Below are positions 29,025 to 38,793 of a stretch of 51,813 nucleotides of DNA, in pieces. Source of the DNA: Deltaproteobacteria bacterium (GTDB taxonomy: Bacteria > Myxococcota_A > Polyangia > Polyangiales > JADJMO01). The stretch is taken from positions 1 through 51,813 of the forward strand of contig JALHOE010000039.1 of assembly GCA_022843175.1 (NCBI GenBank). The letters run 5' to 3'. The first letter of the stretch is position 1. The number at the start of each line of letters is the position of its first letter. The position numbers and the translations under genes are program-made. The notes below the pieces were generated by a model. It was given only the letters and a program-made list of their open reading frames with translations. It was not told where the DNA came from and did not search any database.

Positions 29025-30037
29025 CAGAACTCACCGACGAGGTGGAACGAGCCGAGACCGACCACGGGGTGAACCCGAGCCGCCGCGCGCTCTCTCGGTG
29101 GTTCGCGCGAGAGCAGACCGAACACGGCGACGCCCACGCCGAGGCCCGCGACGACGAAGGCGGTCGTGGAGATGTTGCCGAAGGTCTTCCCGGAGTCGAC
29201 CATCGAGTGCACCGAGGGCGGGCATGCCCCGTCGACGCACGACTCCTTCGCCGTGCGCGCACGAGACCATGCGGTGAGGCCGGTGACGGTCCCCGTAGCC
29301 GCGCCCGCCACCGCGATCGAGATGCCGATCCAGGTCAACGCCGGCAGTCCCCGCGAGGCAGGCTGCACGTCTGGGCTCGGCTTCGGAGCCTCGATCGGGG
29401 CGCTCGGCTTCACCGGCACGTCCGGCGCCGGCGCGGGCGGCGGCTCGAGCGTGACGACGACCGTGCGCTGCTCCTTCTCGGCGAGCGTGATCTCCATCCG
29501 CTTCTCGGGCCCGGCTGCGACCGACGCGCGCACGACGTGCAAGCCGGGGTTGAGCTTTCGCGGTTCGCCGAACGCGGCGCGTGGGATGGCGACGCCGTCG
29601 ATCAGCAGCGTCACGTTGTCGCTGGGCACGCCCGCGATGGTGACGACCAGCGACGGCAGGCGCGCCTTGAGCTCCTCGGCGAGCTTGTCGGCCTCGGCGC
29701 GCGCCGACTTGGTGTTCGCCGACTCGTTCGCCTTGGCCGGGATGCGCGCGACCGAGAGGAACACATCGCGCGCCTCTACCAGATCTCCGTGGCGCTCGAG
29801 GGTGCGCCCGTACTCGACGGCCGTGATCGGCGTGTTCGCGAGCGCGTGCGCCGCCTTGAACTTCTCGAGGGCCCCTACGAGATCTCCCTTGTCGCGGAGC
29901 GCCTTCCCCAACTTGTACAAATCGCGCGCGCTCTCCAGATCGGAAGCCGTTGCCTCCGCGTGCGCGACCGATGAGGGCAGCGCGGGCGCAAGCAGACCGG
30001 CCGCGAACAGACACACGATGGGGAGGCGAGGACGCAC
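29024..30037 (-). CDS. TPR/PEGA-like membrane protein
   Basis: A 337-residue protein. After a signal (cut near AHAEA, about residue 28) come TPR-like helices (DLYKLGKALRDKGDLVGALEKFKAAHALANTP; GRTLERHGDLVEARDVFLSVA). A PEGA-like carbohydrate-type domain follows (about 125-195; VVTIAGVPSDNVTLLIDGVAIP ... GLHVVRASVA), then a Pro-rich linker and two transmembrane helices (about 225-250 and 290-310). This arrangement recurs in myxobacteria next to Ser/Thr kinases and lipoproteins, as here. The start is GTG at 30037. Its role may be to hold or sense cell-wall or surface structure for the kinase, which is inference. Confidence 0.85.
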   Translation of the reverse strand: MRPRLPIVCLFAAGLLAPALPSSVAHAEATASDLESARDLYKLGKALRDKGDLVGALEKFKAAHALANTPITAVEYGRTLERHGDLVEARDVFLSVARIPAKANESANTKSARAEADKLAEELKARLPSLVVTIAGVPSDNVTLLIDGVAIPRAAFGEPRKLNPGLHVVRASVAAGPEKRMEITLAEKEQRTVVVTLEPPPAPAPDVPVKPSAPIEAPKPSPDVQPASRGLPALTWIGISIAVAGAATGTVTGLTAWSRARTAKESCVDGACPPSVHSMVDSGKTFGNISTTAFVVAGLGVGVAVFGLLSREPPRERAAARVHPVVGLGSFHLVGEF

Positions 30038-30244
30038 GGAGCAAAGCTACCATTTCGAGGGCTGACCGACTGCCGAGGCTCCAAAGCCCCTCGGCGACGC
30101 CGGCGATCCGCCCGATGTGCGCTCGGCGTCGGGAAACAGCGCGCGAATGGCGTCCACCGACAGCCCGGTCATGAGCGAGGCCGCGCTGAGATTGGGCCTG
30201 CGAGGAGCGTGGAACAGATCGTTTCGCGCGCCGGCCCATGGAAC

Positions 30245-30254
30245 GAACCGGTTC
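30245..30254. promoter_or_regulatory. Palindrome GAACCGGTTC, candidate activator site
   Basis: A perfect 10-bp palindrome 45 bases upstream of the sigma-54 promoter element. Enhancer-binding activators usually bind dyads 70-150 bases before the start; this one is about 75 bases before the predicted start. It is a candidate site for the activator encoded at 37450-38793. Confidence 0.35.
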
Positions 30255-30298
30255 AAGGCGCCGAGCCCAATTCCCGCCGAACGCGCAGTGGTCGGCGC

Positions 30299-30313
30299 GG
30301 CACTCGGGTTGCT
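30299..30313 (+). promoter_or_regulatory. Predicted sigma-54 (-24/-12) promoter
   Basis: GGCAC at 30299-30303, five bases (TCGGG), then TTGCT at 30309-30313. The GG (-24) and GC (-12) are exactly 12 bases apart, as the sigma-54 consensus (TGGCAC-N5-TTGC) requires; only the leading T is replaced by C. The predicted start is near 30323-30325, so the leader before the ATG at 30329 would be very short. The cluster carries its own sigma-54 activator gene, which strengthens the call. Confidence 0.65.
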
Positions 30314-30328
30314 GAGAGCTTCTTCATC

Positions 30329-32524
30329 ATGGCTCTCTCGCGACGGCGGTTTCTCGGTCTGAGTGCGGGCACCCTCGCGGCAGCCGTCGCCAGCAAGCTC
30401 GTCTTCACGCGCTCGGCGGCGGCCGGCCACCCGACGATCGATCCCGGCACCGACGGACACGCGGTCTCGTCGGTGTGCGAGGTCTGCTTCTGGAAGTGCG
30501 GCATCGAGGCGCACGCCCACGGCGACCGGCTGATCAAGATCCGCGGCAACCCCCGCCACCCGCTGTCGAACGGCAGGCTGTGCCCGCGCGGCGTCGGCGC
30601 GGTGGGCCTCGCGTACGATCCGGACCGCCTCGTGAAGCCGATGCTCCGCGTCGGCCCGCGCGGGAACGACGAGTTCAAGATCGTCGAGTGGGACGAAGCG
30701 CTCGCGTTCATCGCCGGCAAGCTCGACGAGCTGAAGAGGAAGTACGGACCGGAGTCGGTCGCGCTGTTCAACCACGGCGCCGGTGCCTCGTGGTTCAAGC
30801 ACCTGCTCTCGGCGTACGGCACCGCCAACTTCGGCGCGCCGTCGTTCGCGCAGTGCCGCGGCCCGCGCGACGTCGCCTTCGACCTCACGTTCGGCGCCGA
30901 ACCCGGCTCGCCGGAGGTGCTCGACATCGCGAACTCGGAGTGCCTGGTGCTCATCGGCTCGCACCTCGGCGAGAACATGCACAACACGCAGGTGCAGGAC
31001 TTCGCCGAGGCGGTCGCGCGCGGCGCCGATCTCATCGTCGTCGATCCGCGGTTCTCGACCGCCGCGTCCAAGGCCAGGACCTGGATGCCGATCCGGCCGG
31101 GCACCGACACCGCGCTCCTGCTCGCGTGGATCCACGTCATCGTCACCGAGCAGCGCCACAACCGTGCCTACGTCGAGAAGTACACGACCGGGTTCGAGGA
31201 GCTGAAGAAGGCCGTCGCCACGTACACCCCGGAGTGGGCCTCGGCCGAGACCGGGCTCGACGCCGCGCTCATCCGCAGCACCGCGCGCCGCATCGCCGGC
31301 GCCGCGCCCGCGTCGCTCGTGCACCCCGGTCGCCACGCCTCGTGGTACGGCGCGGACGACACCCACCGCTCGCGCGCGATCGCGATCCTCAACGCGCTGC
31401 TCGGCAGCTGGGGGCACCGCGGCGGGTTCTTCCGGCCGAGCGGGATGAAGCTCGCCAAGATCCCGACCCCGCCGTATCCGAAGCCCAAACCTCCCGCCGA
31501 TCGCGTCGAGGGCGAGGCGCCCTTCGCGCTCGAGCCGCTCGCCCAGGGGCTGCGCCGCGCGACGATCGACGGCAAGCCGTACCCCATCAAGGGCTGGTTC
31601 GTGTACGGCACGAACCTCATCCAGGCATTGCCGCAGCGCGAGGAGACGCTCAAGGCGATCCAGGCGCTCGAGCTCCTGGTGGTGGTCGACGTGCTCCCGG
31701 CGGAGATCGCCGGCTACGCCGACGTCGTGCTGCCCGAGGCCGCATACCTCGAACGCTACGACGACCTCATCCCGATCGCGTGGCATGAGAGCGGCGTCGC
31801 GCTCCGTCAGCCGGTGATCCCGCCTCCCGGCGACGCGAAGCCCGGCTGGTGGATCGCGCGCGAGCTCGGCAAGCGCCTCGGCCTCGAGAAGTACTTCCCG
31901 TGGACCGACGCCGAGAGCTACCTCCGCGAGCGCTGCAAGCTCTCGGGCATCGACTTCGAGGCCCTCGCGCGCGACGGCGTCGTGCTCGCCCCGCACAAGC
32001 CGACGGTGATCGAGGACGGCCTCGCGCTCTCGTTCGCGACGGAGAGCGGCAAGATCGAGCTCTTCTCGGAGAAGCTCAGGGCCGCCGGCTTCGATCCGCT
32101 CCCCGTCTACCTTCGACCCCACGCGGTGCCCGCAGGCTACTTTCGGCTGCTGTACGGCCGCGCGGCGGCGCACACCTTCGGTCGCACCACCAACAACCGC
32201 CTCCTCGGCGAGCTCGCGCACAACGATCGGGTGTGGATCAACGCGAAGGTCGCCAAGGACATGGGCCTTCACGACGGCGACGTCGTCCGCCTCACCAACC
32301 AGGACGGCATCAAGAGCGCGCCCGTGCAGATCAAGGCCACCGAGCGGATCCGCGGCGACTGCGTCTACATGGTCCACGGGTGGGGACACACCGCCAAGGG
32401 GCTCCGCTACGCGAAGGGCAAGGGAGCCGACGACTCCGAGCTCGTCTCGCGGGTGAACGTCGATCCGGTCATGGGCGGCACCGGAATGCGCATGAACTTC
32501 GTCGCGCTCCAGAGGGAGGCCTGA
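30329..32524 (+). CDS. Tat-exported molybdopterin oxidoreductase, PsrA/PhsA type
   Basis: A 731-residue catalytic subunit of the DMSO reductase superfamily. Tat signal SRRRFLGLSAGT opens the protein, so it is exported folded with its cofactor. A [4Fe-4S] site follows: Cys50-x2-Cys53-x3-Cys57 and Cys85 (CEVCFWKC ... RLCPRG). The predicted molybdenum ligand is Cys176 in SFAQCRGPRDVAFD, as in polysulfide and thiosulfate reductases. The C-terminal molydopterin dinucleotide-binding domain has FGRTTNNRLL and NDRVWINAKVAKDMGL. The ATG at 30329 is fixed by the Tat signal; an in-frame TTG-led extension upstream has no such motif. First gene of an eight-gene run; the ferredoxin subunit begins three bases downstream. 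Reduction or oxidation of a sulfur compound is the most likely reaction; the exact substrate is unresolved. Confidence 0.92.
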   Translation: MALSRRRFLGLSAGTLAAAVASKLVFTRSAAAGHPTIDPGTDGHAVSSVCEVCFWKCGIEAHAHGDRLIKIRGNPRHPLSNGRLCPRGVGAVGLAYDPDRLVKPMLRVGPRGNDEFKIVEWDEALAFIAGKLDELKRKYGPESVALFNHGAGASWFKHLLSAYGTANFGAPSFAQCRGPRDVAFDLTFGAEPGSPEVLDIANSECLVLIGSHLGENMHNTQVQDFAEAVARGADLIVVDPRFSTAASKARTWMPIRPGTDTALLLAWIHVIVTEQRHNRAYVEKYTTGFEELKKAVATYTPEWASAETGLDAALIRSTARRIAGAAPASLVHPGRHASWYGADDTHRSRAIAILNALLGSWGHRGGFFRPSGMKLAKIPTPPYPKPKPPADRVEGEAPFALEPLAQGLRRATIDGKPYPIKGWFVYGTNLIQALPQREETLKAIQALELLVVVDVLPAEIAGYADVVLPEAAYLERYDDLIPIAWHESGVALRQPVIPPPGDAKPGWWIARELGKRLGLEKYFPWTDAESYLRERCKLSGIDFEALARDGVVLAPHKPTVIEDGLALSFATESGKIELFSEKLRAAGFDPLPVYLRPHAVPAGYFRLLYGRAAAHTFGRTTNNRLLGELAHNDRVWINAKVAKDMGLHDGDVVRLTNQDGIKSAPVQIKATERIRGDCVYMVHGWGHTAKGLRYAKGKGADDSELVSRVNVDPVMGGTGMRMNFVALQREA

Positions 32525-32527
32525 GCC

Positions 32528-33070
32528 ATGCGCCGCGTGATGGTCATCGACATGAAGCGCTGCGTGGGCTGCGAGGCCTGCGTGGTCGCCTGCAAGACGG
32601 AGAACCGCGTCCCCGACGGCAAGTACCGTGATTGGGTCGTCCAGGAGACGCGCGGCGAGCTCCCGCTCCTCGAGCTCTTCATCCGCTCGCAGCGCTGCAA
32701 CCACTGCGCGGACGCCCCCTGCGTCGCCAACTGCCCGACCGGCGCGAGCTTCTATCGCGGGGACGGCACGGTGCAGATCGATCGCGATCTGTGCACCGGC
32801 TGCCGCGCCTGCATGGCGAGCTGCCCGTACGACGCACGCTACGTCCACCCGGAGGGCTTCGTCGACAAGTGCACGCTGTGCGTCCACCGCCTCGACAAGG
32901 GCAAGCCGACCGCGTGCGAGGAGGTCTGTCCGACCGGGGCGATCCTCACGGGGGATCTCGACGATCCCAACTCCCTCGTCACGCTGCGCCTCAAGCGCGG
33001 CGACGTCTCGGTGGTCAACGCCGAGGCGGGCACGAAACCCAACGTCTTCTATGTGAACGGAGCACGCTGA
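32528..33070 (+). CDS. Four-cluster [4Fe-4S] ferredoxin subunit, PsrB/PhsB type
   Basis: A 180-residue iron-sulfur protein with four ferredoxin-type Cys groups: CVGCEACVVAC (about 12-22), CNHCADAPCVANC (about 57-69), CTGCRACMASC (about 89-99) and CTLC with CEEVC (about 116-137). This is the standard layout of the electron-transfer subunit in PsrABC, PhsABC, NrfC and DmsB. It has no signal peptide of its own, so it should be carried out together with the Tat substrate encoded before it. The stop overlaps the start of the NrfD-type gene (TGATG). Electrons pass between the membrane subunit and the molybdenum site. Confidence 0.94.
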   Translation: MRRVMVIDMKRCVGCEACVVACKTENRVPDGKYRDWVVQETRGELPLLELFIRSQRCNHCADAPCVANCPTGASFYRGDGTVQIDRDLCTGCRACMASCPYDARYVHPEGFVDKCTLCVHRLDKGKPTACEEVCPTGAILTGDLDDPNSLVTLRLKRGDVSVVNAEAGTKPNVFYVNGAR

Positions 33071-34014
33071 TGGCTCCCAACCTGGAAATCGAGACCACCC
33101 GCAGCGCAGCCCTCGCCGCCGCCGAGCGCGTGTGGGGATGGGAGATCCCCATCTACCTGTTCCTCGGCGGCCTGGTCGCGGGCCTCATGTTGGCTGTGAG
33201 CACCGCGGTGCTGACGCTCGGTCGAGAGCGGATCACCGCGGCGATGAAGCGCGGCCTGCTCCTTGCGCCGGTGCTGCTCTCGCTCGGCATGGGCGCGCTC
33301 TTCGTCGACCTGACCTACAAGCTGCACGTCTTCCGCTTCTACACGACGTTCCGGGCCTCGGCGCCGATGTCGCTCGGCTCGTGGGTGTTGCTGCTCGTGT
33401 ACCCGGTGCAGCTCGGCCTCGTGCTGGCGATGCCGGCAGACCTCCTCGAGCCCTGGCTCGACCGCCTGCCGTGGTTGAAGCGGGTGCGCGCGCTCGCCGA
33501 GGCGAGCGTGAAGCGCCTCGCGTGGGCCGGCCTCGGGCTCGGCGTCGCGCTCGGCATCTACACCGGCGTGTTGCTCTCTGCGACCGTGGCGCGGCCGCTG
33601 TGGTCGAGCGGCGCGCTCGGGTTCCTCTTCCTCGCCTCCGGCGCGTCGACCGGCGTCGCCGCGCTGATGGTACTCGAGCGCGATCGCGCGATGCAGGGAG
33701 TGTTCGCCCGCGCCGACATCACGCTCATCGCCGTCGAGCTGATGGTCATCGTGCTCTGGCTCGTCGGGCTGATGACGCAGGGCCCGATCTACCGCGAGGC
33801 GGCACAGCTCGTGCTCTCTGGACCGTATGCGCCCATCTTCGTCGGCGTCGTGGTGTTCGGCGGGTTGCTCGTCCCCGCGGCGCTCGAGGCGATGTCGCTC
33901 CGCGGCCGGGCGCTGCACTCGCGGTGGGTGCCGGTGCTGGTGTTGGTCGGCGGTCTCTTGCTCCGTTTCGTCATCGTCTACGCGGGACAAGACGTCTCGT
34001 TCGTGAAGGGGTGA
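33070..34014 (+). CDS. NrfD/PsrC-type quinone-interacting membrane subunit
   Basis: A 314-residue integral membrane protein with eight to nine predicted helices: WEIPIYLFLGGLVAGLMLAV, LLLAPVLLSLGMGALFVDL, SWVLLLVYPVQLGLVLAM, AWAGLGLGVALGIYTGVLL, and so on. The opening ERVWGWEIPIYLFLGGLVAG and the segment GIYTGVLLS are typical of NrfD/PsrC. It would link the quinone pool to the ferredoxin subunit. The start overlaps the previous stop (TGATG), so A, B and C subunits are made together. There are no haem motifs in this protein; the multihaem cytochrome is encoded separately. Confidence 0.93.
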   Translation: MAPNLEIETTRSAALAAAERVWGWEIPIYLFLGGLVAGLMLAVSTAVLTLGRERITAAMKRGLLLAPVLLSLGMGALFVDLTYKLHVFRFYTTFRASAPMSLGSWVLLLVYPVQLGLVLAMPADLLEPWLDRLPWLKRVRALAEASVKRLAWAGLGLGVALGIYTGVLLSATVARPLWSSGALGFLFLASGASTGVAALMVLERDRAMQGVFARADITLIAVELMVIVLWLVGLMTQGPIYREAAQLVLSGPYAPIFVGVVVFGGLLVPAALEAMSLRGRALHSRWVPVLVLVGGLLLRFVIVYAGQDVSFVKG

Positions 34015-34019
34015 GCCCC

Positions 34020-34562
34020 ATGGCCAAGGTCATTCGCGACGAAAGTCACCCGGTCGAGAAGCCCATGTGGGATCCCTACGTGGCCGGGTTCTTCCTCGGT
34101 CTCGTCCTCCTCGCCACGTTCCTCGTGGTGGGCCGCGGCCTCGGCGCCTCGGGCGCGCTCGCGCGGTTCACCGCCCGCATCGCCGACACGTTCGTGCCCA
34201 CCTGGGTGTCGAGCAACGGCGCGTTCGGCGGCTACTTCGCCAAGGGCGCGCGGTGGTGGGACGACTGGCTGGTCTTCGAGGTGATCGGCGTCGTCCTCGG
34301 CGGGCTCGCCGCCGGGATCACCAGCGGTCGCTTCGGCATCAAGGTCGAGGGTGGTCCGCGCATCACCGCGCGCCAGCGCCTGTTCTTCGCGTTCCTCGGC
34401 GGTGCGATCGTCGGCTTCGGCGCTCGCCTCGCGCAGGGGTGCACGAGCGGTCAGGCGCTCACCGGCGGCGCGACGCTCGCACTCGGTAGCTGGGCCTTCA
34501 TGTTCGCCGTGTTCGGCGGCGCATATGGCCTCGCGTACTTCGTCAGGAGGCTTTGGACATGA
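34020..34562 (+). CDS. YeeE/YedE half-size sulfur transporter, first copy
   Basis: A 180-residue membrane protein with about four helices. The sulfur-transporter motif is present: ARLAQGCTSGQALTGGATLALGSW near residues 140-163, with Cys in GCTSG that in YeeE relays thiosulfate through the membrane. Full-length YeeE has both halves in one chain; here they are two genes. The ATG at 34020 follows the NrfD stop by five bases. The stop overlaps the start of the second half (ATGA). Predicted task: bring a thiosulfate-like compound through the inner membrane for use by, or after, the oxidoreductase. Confidence 0.9.
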   Translation: MAKVIRDESHPVEKPMWDPYVAGFFLGLVLLATFLVVGRGLGASGALARFTARIADTFVPTWVSSNGAFGGYFAKGARWWDDWLVFEVIGVVLGGLAAGITSGRFGIKVEGGPRITARQRLFFAFLGGAIVGFGARLAQGCTSGQALTGGATLALGSWAFMFAVFGGAYGLAYFVRRLWT

Positions 34563-35182
34563 TGCCCCTCAAACCCGAGGTCTGGGTCGCCTACACCTTC
34601 GCCGTCCTGTCGGGGTTCGCGTTCGGGTTCGTCCTCGAGCGCGCCGGCTTCGGCAGCTCGCGCAAGCTCGCCGCGCAGTTCTACCTGCGCGACATGACCG
34701 TGCTGAAGGTGATGTTCACCGCGATCGTCACCGCGATGCTCGGCCTCGTGGTCCTCCGCTCGCTCGGCTTCGTCGACATGGAGAAGATCTACGTCAACCC
34801 CACGTTCCTCGGACCGCAGGTCGTCGGCGGGCTCATCTTCGGCGCCGGGTTCGCGATCGGCGGATACTGCCCCGGCACCAGCATCGTCGCCGCGGCCACC
34901 GGCAAGCTCGATGCGGTCGCCTTCCTCGGCGGCGCCATGACCGGCATCCTCGCGTTCGCCGGGGTGTACGGGAAGCTCGCGGGCTTCGCCACCTCGGGCG
35001 GTCAGCGCGAGCTCCTCATGGACTGGCTGCACCTCTCGTACGGCACCGTGGCCATCCTCGTCACGCTCCTCGCGCTCGGGATGTTCGCGGGCGCCGAGTG
35101 GATCGAACGCAAGATGCGCGGCGTGCCCGCGCCCGTCGCGAAGCCCGACGGCGAGTCGGCCGCGCCCACCCCTGCGGAGTGA
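34559..35182 (+). CDS. YeeE/YedE half-size sulfur transporter, second copy
   Basis: A 207-residue membrane protein with about five helices and motif GFAIGGYCPGTSIVAAATGK (Cys in YCPGTS near residue 105), the partner motif to GCTSG in the first copy. It also has FGFVLERAGFGSSRKLAAQF, a common YeeE/YedE N-terminal segment. The ATG at 34559 overlaps the previous stop (ATGA) and has CAGGAGG eight bases before it, so it is preferred to the in-frame TTG at 34553. The C-terminal 25 residues are a cytoplasmic Pro/Ala tail. The two halves probably form a heterodimer. Confidence 0.9.
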   Translation: MMPLKPEVWVAYTFAVLSGFAFGFVLERAGFGSSRKLAAQFYLRDMTVLKVMFTAIVTAMLGLVVLRSLGFVDMEKIYVNPTFLGPQVVGGLIFGAGFAIGGYCPGTSIVAAATGKLDAVAFLGGAMTGILAFAGVYGKLAGFATSGGQRELLMDWLHLSYGTVAILVTLLALGMFAGAEWIERKMRGVPAPVAKPDGESAAPTPAE

Positions 35183-35188
35183 ACCGTC

Positions 35189-35782
35189 ATGCTGCGCTTC
35201 ACCAAAAACTCGATGTTCGTCCTCGCCGCGCTCGGCGTCTCCATCGGCAGCGCGGGGTTCGCGCGGCGCGCTCAGCACCGAGCCCCCGCGATGACCGTCG
35301 AGGTCGCGCCCGCGACGCTGTCGCCCTTCGCGCTCGCGCGCCTGCTCGCCGACGCGCCGCCCGACGTGGTGGTGATCGCGCTCGACGAGCCGCGGCACTC
35401 GCTGCGGTTCGCGATGCCCGCGGCGGTGTTCGGCGCGACCGACGAAGCCCTCGCCGAGAACGCGCCGCGGTTCCGGCGCGTGGTGCTCGCAGGCTTCGAC
35501 CTCGTGCGCATGGACCGACTCGCGCGTCGGCTGCGCGCCTCGGGGCGCGACGTGCGCGTGCTCGCCGGCGGGCTCGATTCGTGGGACAAGACGATGGACC
35601 GGGATCCGGTCGCGCTTCCTCCCGGCGCGTCCGCCGAAGCATGGCAGACCTTCCGCGATCACGTTGCCCTGCGCCGCTCCTTCGGCGACGCACCCGCCGG
35701 GCCCGCCACGCCGGTGGCGGCGCCGATCGCGCCGATCGCGGCGCCGGCCGGCGCCCCCACCAAAAAGCGCGAGGGCTGCTGA
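35189..35782 (+). CDS. Exported rhodanese-like protein without the catalytic Cys
   Basis: A 197-residue protein with an N-terminal signal or anchor (FVLAALGVSIGSAGFARRA). The rhodanese fold is suggested by PPDVVVIALDEP, a central strand VVLAGFD and the end GRDVRVLAGGLDSWDKT, which matches the GGxxxW end of rhodanese domains. The active-site loop that should read Cys-x4-R is LAGFDLVRMDRLARRL: there is no Cys, so sulfur transfer by the usual route is not possible. The only Cys is in the C-terminal KKREGC, which could be lipid-like, redox or sulfur-carrying. It starts seven bases after the second YeeE gene. It may bind sulfur compounds rather than cleave them. Confidence 0.78.
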   Translation: MLRFTKNSMFVLAALGVSIGSAGFARRAQHRAPAMTVEVAPATLSPFALARLLADAPPDVVVIALDEPRHSLRFAMPAAVFGATDEALAENAPRFRRVVLAGFDLVRMDRLARRLRASGRDVRVLAGGLDSWDKTMDRDPVALPPGASAEAWQTFRDHVALRRSFGDAPAGPATPVAAPIAPIAAPAGAPTKKREGC

Positions 35783-35792
35783 CGGGGGCTCC

Positions 35793-37457
35793 ATGAGCCA
35801 ACGGGCGCGGGTGGCCGCGGCGGTGCTCGCCGTCGCCGCGCTGATCGCGGTCGTGCTCCTCGTACGACGCCCTCGCTTGCCGCCGCTCCCGCAGATCTCC
35901 GTCGCGGGGCTCTCGCGCGACGAGGGGTGCCTCTCGTGTCACGCGACGGTGCAGGGCGTCGGCGGCGCGCACGCCGCGATGGGCTGCAGCCCCTGTCACC
36001 TCGGCGATCCGAGCGCGCGCGACGCGAGGGCCGCGCACGCGGGCATGGAGCTCCTCTCCGGAGACTTCGCCACCGTCGACCGCACGTGCGGCCAGGGCGC
36101 GTGCCACGCGGTGGAGACGGCCCGCGCGCGCACCAGCCTGATGGCGCGCGCGCCCGGCATCCTCGCGGTCGATCGCTTCGCCTTCGGCGAGCGCAAGACA
36201 CCGCACCGCGAGCCGGGCGACGATCTCACGAGCCTCGATCCGAACGCCGCGCCGAAGACGCCCGCGGAGTCGCACGTCCGCAAGCTGTGTGCGGGGTGCC
36301 ACCTCGGCGCGCGCAAGCCGCGGCCGGGCGATCTCGGCGACGACGCGCGCGGCGGCGGCTGCACCGCGTGTCACCTCGCGCCGCCGAACGTCGCAGCGGG
36401 CAAGGGCGGGCCGCTCCACCCCGAAGTCTCCGCGGTGGTGCCGGAGCGAAGGTGCTCCGGCTGTCATGGTCGGAGCGGGCGCATCACGATGTCGTTCCAC
36501 GGCGTCGTCGAGCTCGAGCCCGGCGATCCGCGCGTCACCGGCAAGACCGCCGACGGACGCCCCACCGCGCGCATCGCGGCCGACGTCCACGCGGTCGCGG
36601 GCATGACCTGCATCGACTGCCACGTCGAGCGCGAGCTGATGGGCACCGGCACCCCTCACCTCCACGCGCACGAGGCGCTGGAGGTGAGGTGCGCGGATTG
36701 TCACCGGAAGGCGGGCCAGGTGCCCCCGCGCGATCCCGATCGCGAGCAGGTCGCCGAGGCGCTGCGCCGCTCATGGGCGCGCCGGAAGCTGACGCCGCTG
36801 TCGCTCTCGCCGCTCTACACGCAGCTCGGGACGCCGCTCGTGCGCACGGACGCCGCGTCGCACTCGCTGCTGCTCTCGGTCGACGGCGCGCGCAAGACCA
36901 TCCCGCTCGCGACGGAGAAGCCCTGGCACGCGCTCCGCGGTCACGAGCGGCTCTCCTGCCAGTCCTGTCACGCCGCGTGGGCGCCGCGGTGTGGGTCGTG
37001 TCACACGAGCTTCGACGCCAACGGCACCGACGTCGATCACCTCTCCGGCAAGGCGACGCCCGGTCACTGGACGGAGGTCGCCGGCGCGAACGGCTTCGGC
37101 CCGCCGCTCCTCGCGCTCGGCCCGCGCGGCGCGATCGAGCCGTTCGTCGAGGGCATGCGCATGACGCTGGTGGTGGGCGGCGCGAAGAGCGAGCGCACGC
37201 TGTTCGCGCCGCTCGATCCGCACACCACCGCCAGGGCACGCGCCTGCTCGTCGTGTCACCAGAAGCTCGACGACACCTACCCCGCTACCGGCGAGATCAC
37301 CCGTCTCGGAGCGCGCCTGCTCGACGCCGCCGAGCGCGCGCGCATCGCGCGGGTGGGCACCTGCCTCGGCTGCCACGCAAGCTACGCGGACAAGATCTAC
37401 GGCGACTTCGGCGGAAGCCTCGGCAGGCAGACCCCGCAGTGCAAGCCCGCTAAGTGA
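35793..37457 (+). CDS. Membrane-anchored 12-haem c-type cytochrome
   Basis: A 554-residue protein with an N-terminal anchor ([20 protein letters not shown]). Eleven CxxCH sites are visible (CLSCH, CSPCH, CAGCH, CTACH, CSGCH, CIDCH, CADCH, CQSCH, CGSCH, CSSCH, CLGCH), plus one CGQGACH with four residues between the Cys (Cx4CH). That gives twelve predicted haems. Many further His residues can serve as distal ligands. The protein would work in the periplasm, passing electrons to or from the sulfur oxidoreductase, or could itself reduce a substrate. It starts 10 bases after the rhodanese-like gene. The stop overlaps that of the regulator gene by eight bases. Confidence 0.92.
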
Positions 37458-38793
37458 GGCCGAGCGCGCGCATCTTGCGCCACAGCGTGGTGCGGCTGAT
37501 CCCGAGCTCGGCCGCGGCGCGTGCGTGGTGCCAGTGGTGGGTCTCGAGCGCGGCGCGCACCCGGGCGGCGTCGTCGTCGTCGGCCGGCTCCTCGAGGTGC
37601 GCCGGGTGCTCCTCGCCGCCGAGCGCGACGGCGATCTCGGGCGGGAGATCTTCGAGCTGCAGCGTCTGGCGTTGGCAGATCGCCACCGCGTACTCGATGG
37701 CGTTCTCGAGCTCGCGCACGTTGCCGGGCCAGGAGTAGCTCTTGAGCGCGACGAGGACGTCGGGCGAGAGGCGGACCGCGCGGCCCTCGCGGGCGGCGAT
37801 GCGAGAGAGCAGGTGGCGCGCGAGCGGCTCGATGTCCTCCTCGCGCTCGCGGAGCGGCGGCACGTGGATGGGCACGACCCGGAGCCGGTAGTAGAGATCT
37901 TCGCGGAACCGACCGTTGGCGATCGCCTCCTTGAGGTCGACGTTGGTCGCCGCGATGACGCGCGCGTCGATCGCGCGGGTGGTGCTCTCGCCCACGCGCT
38001 CGAACGTGCGGGCCTGGAGCACGCGCAGGAGCTTCACCTGCAGGACGGCCGGCATGTCGCCGATCTCGTCGAGGAACACGACGCCGCCGCGCGCGGCCTC
38101 GAACCGGCCGACGCGATCGCGCACCGCGCCGGTGAACGCGCCGCGTACGTGCCCGAAGAGCTCGCTCTCGAGGAGGTCTCCGGGGAGCGCGCCGCAGTTG
38201 ACCGCGACGAAGGGGCCGGCGCGCCGCGGCGAGCTCGCGTGGATGGCGCGCGCGACGACCTCCTTGCCGGTGCCGCTCTCGCCGGTGACCAGCACCGTGG
38301 CGTCGCTCCGATGCAGCGACTCGATGAACCGCACGATCTTCAGCATGGCCGGCGCGCGCGCGACCAGCCCCTGCGCCGCGAGCGCGCCCTCGAGGATGAG
38401 CTCGTCCTCCTCGGCGGGGCGCAGCACCAACAAGTAGCGCGCGCCGCTCGCCCACGTGCTCGCCTCGGCGGGGACCGGCGCGGCGGTGACCGACGCGAGG
38501 CGGGCGGTGCCGTTCTCGCACTGCACGAACGCGCGCCGGCCCTCTTCGCGCTCGCCATGCTCGAGCGAGACACGCAGCGCCTCGTCGGCGGCGAACAAGC
38601 GCGCGCCGACGAGATCGTCGATGGGGCGTCCGACGATCTTGTGGCACGCGCCGGGGCACACCCACGAGTCGAGCGTCGCGGTCGCGCGCACGACGCGGAA
38701 CTCGGCGTCGAGGAGCAGGAGCACGCGCCCGAGCGCAGCGAACGCCGATTCGAGCGCCGCCCAGCCCGGTTCCTCCGCTGCTCGATCGACCAT
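37450..38793 (-). CDS. Sigma-54-dependent activator with N-terminal PAS domain
   Basis: A protein of about 447 residues. The PAS-like sensor (about 10-110) holds [13 protein letters not shown], a Cx3CH motif that could bind haem or a metal. The AAA+ domain has Walker A GESGTGKE, the sigma-54 contact loop [11 protein letters not shown], Walker [10 protein letters not shown] and the R-finger region [10 protein letters not shown] Fis-type helix-turn-helix ends the protein ([19 protein letters not shown]). There is no receiver domain, so it is a one-component sensor. The ATG at 38793 is preferred; a TTG at 38829 would add 12 residues. Convergent with the cytochrome gene. Very likely the activator of the sulfur cluster through the promoter at 30299. 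Confidence 0.92.

Follow-up and report, generated by a model that had tools for sequence, protein, structure and literature searches.

A predicted sigma-54 promoter with almost no leader before a psr/phs-type operon of the Polyangiales, and its apparent recurrence in the order

The leaderless genes of Deinococcus-Thermus have a sigma-70-type -10 element that abuts the ORF (PMC12340547), and in Bradyrhizobium the motif of leaderless genes has the form of an extended -10 box, the start-site study concerned stating that specific promoters for such genes have not been described (PMC4842269). Where promoter motifs of leaderless transcripts have been described, they are sigma-70-like. In the sections covered of the start-site maps of S. 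meliloti (PMC3616915) and Leptospira (PMC5243855), leaderless and sigma-54 genes are handled separately. No account of a class of leaderless genes under sigma-54 was found in the titles, abstracts and passages covered, which came largely from literature outside subscription; a search of the same scope for leaderless genes in Polyangiales gave nothing. The locus presented here has the parts of classical sigma-54 promoters served by enhancer-binding proteins of the NtrC/NifA type, namely a GG-N10-GC core, tandem upstream sites, an activator with GAFTGA and a single copy of rpoN in the genome, but its -12 element and those of its relatives stand 13-16 nt from the ATG, leaving hardly any leader and no Shine-Dalgarno site. 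With the leaderless genes of Deinococcus-Thermus it shares a core element right before the start codon, a predicted leaderless mRNA and the lack of a Shine-Dalgarno site, whereas the element is of the sigma-70 -10 type in those bacteria and a predicted activator-dependent sigma-54 element here (PMC12340547).

The locus lies in a stretch of 51,813 nt (hereafter the window; contig JALHOE010000039.1 of assembly GCA_022843175.1), and its features are listed in Table 1. Seven tightly packed plus-strand genes extend from 30329 to 37457 and include the catalytic, Fe-S and NrfD-type subunits of PhsABC/PsrABC in equal order; unlike these systems, the operon adds one or more YeeE-type proteins and an ExtM-like multihaem cytochrome. 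The best solved relative of the first product is Thermus 2vpw (E 1.6e-215), and its score against the PhsA thiosulfate reductase profile NF012032 is 494 bits for an equivalog cut-off of 694; by sequence it is related to PhsA and is not filed here as PhsA. The cytochrome resembles ExtM of selenite/tellurite reduction operons (NF040943, 217 bits against a cut-off of 800) and, because of this likeness, the substrate of the operon may be other than a sulfur compound.

Table 1. Features predicted at the operon and in its upstream region (window coordinates)
Feature	Position	Strand	Basis or remark
Activator-binding dyad 1 (predicted), TGGAACAGATCGTTTCG	30210..30226	+	One-mismatch match, conserved in relatives
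Activator-binding dyad 2 (predicted), TGGAACGAACCGGTTCA	30239..30255	+	Contains palindrome 30245-30254
Sigma-54 -24/-12 promoter (predicted), CGGCACtcgggTTGCT	30298..30313	+	Consensus match and conservation in ten relatives
Predicted 5-nt leader	30324..30328	+	Geometry, +1 = 12 nt after C of -12 GC
Tat-exported PhsA/PsrA-like molybdopterin oxidoreductase	30329..32524	+	Family profiles; best solved relative Thermus 2vpw
4Fe-4S electron-transfer subunit (PsrB/PhsB-like)	32528..33070	+	Family profiles
NrfD-type membrane anchor (PsrC-like)	33070..34014	+	Family profiles
YeeE/YedE-type sulphur transport protein	34020..34562	+	PF04143
Membrane protein, no family match; probably second YeeE-type half	34561..35181	+	Neighbourhood
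Protein without family match; possibly rhodanese-like	35189..35782	+	Reading by eye
Multihaem c-type cytochrome, ExtM-like	35793..37457	+	NF040943
Sigma-54 activator	37450..38793	-	PAS-like N-terminus, AAA+ with GAFTGA, Fis-type HTH; convergent with operon

The initial annotation had the cluster ending with an activator that carries an intact GAFTGA loop. The loop is indeed intact, but the gene is not the last of the operon: it is convergent with it, on the minus strand, and its end overlaps that of the cytochrome gene (37450 versus 37457). Its product matches PF00158 at 235 bits as well as PF02954, with GAFTGA present in the alignment, and so combines the AAA+ domain and DNA-binding HTH that define bacterial enhancer-binding proteins; an activator function is assigned because of these domain families and of the co-occurrence with the sites described below. 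Thiol sensing through an N-terminal CPGAC motif was considered and rejected, the cysteines being unconserved beyond close relatives. Another activator of this type, sharing 52-59% identity with that of the window, is found away from the psr cluster in G050, G048 and G102 (L138, L139 and L137).

The promoter element, CGGCAC-N5-TTGCT, has one mismatch to TGGCAC-N5-TTGCW. As previously claimed, GGCAC (30299-30303) and TTGC (30309-30312), here separated by TCGGG, are exactly spaced for -24/-12 elements, with the canonical N10 between GG and GC, and the C of the -12 GC (C30312) lies 16 nt from the ATG at 30329. On its own, the word occurs at close to the background rate of this GC-rich genome: YGGCACN5TTGCW occurs at 20 sites in 9.75 Mb versus 12 for the reversed control, and chance would give about 0.1 in the window and 4e-5 in the 40 nt preceding one given start. 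For this reason the promoter claim does not rest on the word itself; it is the position of the element and its conservation in place before orthologous genes that, in sequence terms, raise it above chance. A scan of 29900-30400 found no sigma-70-like promoter, GC-rich promoters being hard to recognise.

Close homologues of the first product occur in 21 of 183 genomes of the order, that of the window included, many of the relatives compared being MAGs. Ten of these relatives, whose identity to it ranges from 47% to 85%, carry a -24/-12 element, the distance from the C of its GC to the ATG being 13-16 nt; it is 13 nt in L011, L012, L013, L014 and L026, 14 nt in L015, L016, L017 and L018 (the last a weaker match) and 16 nt, as in the window, in L027. 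When the upstream regions of six close relatives were aligned, both dyads, GGCA, TTGC and the ATG were kept and the remainder had diverged. The promoter is absent before the order homologues L020-L022, L025, L028 and L029 (44-56% identity) and before the partial L024. In homologous operons of other phyla this distance is about 20-70 nt, and the ATG is often preceded by a Shine-Dalgarno-like site.

The palindrome GAACCGGTTC noticed initially at 30245-30254 is real and makes up the centre of a longer dyad; the window has two of these, which share the 17-bp pattern TGRAAC-N5-GTTYCA. They are the only one-mismatch matches to the pattern in the window, for which 0.03 were expected, and none of 100 shuffles had two. 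Where homologous operons of Myxococcota, Acidobacteriota and Planctomycetota are linked to an orthologous activator, dyads of the form TGAAAC-N5-GTTTCA recur before them, and the recognition helices of these activators are closely similar. When compared to first-order Markov shuffles, the best site reached p < 0.01 in 14 of 15 activator-linked loci and the two-site score p < 0.02 in all 15. L017 and L018 have a different activator (HTH HRTTLYRKRL), encoded divergently upstream, and since their dyad is of another type (TTGCAT/ATGCAA), the type of site follows the type of activator; the -12-to-ATG distance is nevertheless still 14 nt in both. The same activator and TGAAAC-N5-GTTTCA dyads were also seen before psrA-type operons of Planctomycetota and Acidobacteriota (L049, L053, L066, L110 and other non-Myxococcota loci), where the leader is ordinary; activator and dyads have the look of a regulatory module that has spread through several phyla. 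Further targets of the activator were sought in its own genome, and this line was dropped as too noisy (40 one-mismatch dyads, the two of the window included, versus 25 in the control).

If C30312 is taken as -12, the predicted +1 is 30324 and the leader is 5 nt, in agreement with the roughly five bases proposed in the initial annotation. The true start may instead be 30326, the nearest purine upstream, or 30329; a leader of 3-5 nt is likelier in the window than a strictly leaderless end because the -12-to-ATG distance is 16 nt there, while relatives with 13-14 nt would be leaderless or have 1-3 nt. Overall, canonical sigma-54 initiation is predicted to give leaders of 2-5 nt in the window gene and its relatives, too short to hold a Shine-Dalgarno site, and no GGAG, GAGG or AGGA core was found in the spacer TGAGAGCTTCTTCATC between the promoter core and the AUG. 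Of the two options offered at the outset for so short a leader, near-leaderless translation is the better fit, ten relatives having an equally short distance; a slightly different start is disfavoured, as after 30329 no in-frame ATG, GTG or TTG occurs before the Tat motif is reached, and in-frame stops lie a short way upstream in several relatives (e.g. L011 at -33 and L026 at -45).

Such leaders, held to be unusual, are so in general but appear common within the order when the position of ATG downstream of exact TGGCACN5TTGC words is examined. Among the matches listed, a sample in which genomes early in the list (families f1-f6) count for more, ATG stood 13-14 nt after the C in 47 of 150 sites from 42 genomes of the order (p about 3e-20 for an expectation of 2 of 31 positions, p-values here overstating independence because some sites are orthologous between related genomes). 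The spike is absent from other phyla (5 of 77 sites, 30 genomes); the other Myxococcota families listed gave 8 of 73, and one further family, f29, gave 6 of 22. GTG occupied these positions much more weakly than ATG in the same order (17 of 150 among the matches listed). A spike two bases wide and largely specific for ATG is what would be expected if sigma-54 polymerase starts on the A of the AUG or on a base beside it, and the spacing of 16 nt in the window belongs to its tail. A tally of 63 genomes gave 200 sites at 12-17 nt versus 74 at 22-27 nt; the corresponding counts for the family of the window were 16 and 1. Shine-Dalgarno cores accompanied 5 of 71 short sites versus 7 of 21 longer ones. 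Most ORFs downstream of short sites look real: a length of 60 codons is attained by 25 of 30, versus 46% of background ATGs, and one of 100 codons by 15 of 20, GC3 being high in most cases. They include a glycosyltransferase-20 (trehalose-phosphate synthase type), a sulfate permease and an HMA-domain protein, and some are probable lipoproteins. The spike, the apparently real ORFs and the scarcity of Shine-Dalgarno sites together make leaderless sigma-54 transcripts look like a lineage trait of the order.

These data suggest that 30298-30313 is most likely a working sigma-54 promoter of the psr/phs-type operon, driven by the activator at the two dyads, producing a leaderless or near-leaderless mRNA and belonging to a promoter class that recurs in the order. 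Sequence, conservation, the co-occurrence of dyad and activator and the order-wide spike form the basis of this proposal, from which the transcription start, activator binding and translation mode are predicted. A signal would reach the N-terminal domain of the activator, whose gene stands at the opposite end of the cluster from the promoter; the activator would bind the dyads and loop to sigma-54 polymerase, touching it through the GAFTGA loop; ATP hydrolysis by the activator would then remodel the polymerase to the open complex. As the -12 GC is just 13-16 nt from the ATG, transcription would begin 0-5 nt before the AUG and, by the same geometry, ribosomes would engage a 5'-proximal AUG without a Shine-Dalgarno site.

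Other explanations concern the leader, the activator or the promoter itself. The promoter could be a true sigma-54 promoter and the operon still have an ordinary leader, if an upstream promoter or another start codon were also or mainly used. The frame of the window is open upstream as far as a GTG at 30209, and the empty sigma-70 scan is weak evidence against a second promoter; yet this GTG is not conserved, some relatives have the nearby in-frame stops mentioned above, about 40 residues would be added ahead of the Tat signal, and the order-wide, ATG-specific spike speaks against ordinary leaders, so that we regard this explanation as unlikely. That one of the roughly 70 AAA+ activators of the genome, rather than the neighbouring one, controls the promoter is suggested by G049, a MAG in which promoter and dyads are kept but no activator orthologue was detected, and by the second activators of G050 and G048, which are about 57-59% identical; the dyad, however, matches whichever type of activator is linked to it, from locus to locus and from phylum to phylum, and control by another activator seems improbable. 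The neighbouring gene, already proposed as the regulator in the initial annotation, is favoured by the conserved -24/-12 element, by the co-occurrence and joint change of dyad and activator and by the single rpoN. Finally, the near-background frequency of the word would fit a chance match in which neither word nor dyads have a function, but the conservation of the element in place in ten relatives and the co-location of two dyads leave very little likelihood to this explanation.

Beyond this operon, it is probable that the order systematically puts the -12 element of sigma-54 promoters 13-14 nt before the AUG, so that a set of activator-controlled genes would be expressed as truly leaderless mRNAs, coupling the all-or-none switching of sigma-54 to Shine-Dalgarno-free translation. 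If true, the leaderless messages made in this lineage by sigma-54, a factor strictly dependent on activators, would join transcriptional switching to a separate translation route, and start codons and sigma-54 regulons could be called from sequence in these large-genome bacteria; the operon described here offers a defined candidate activator, a predicted binding site and a promoter.

Several other genes were observed after closely placed sigma-54 sites. A small S30AE gene (ribosome hibernation / 'sigma 54 modulation') follows a 13-14 nt site in the genome of the window (L180, G000:C50:27209) and in its sister genome (L185, G050:C114:58884). Short-leader sites also precede, in several families, CcoI/heavy-metal ATPase-like genes at 15-16 nt (L141-L143, L148-L150) and universal stress protein-like genes at 13-15 nt (L164-L166).
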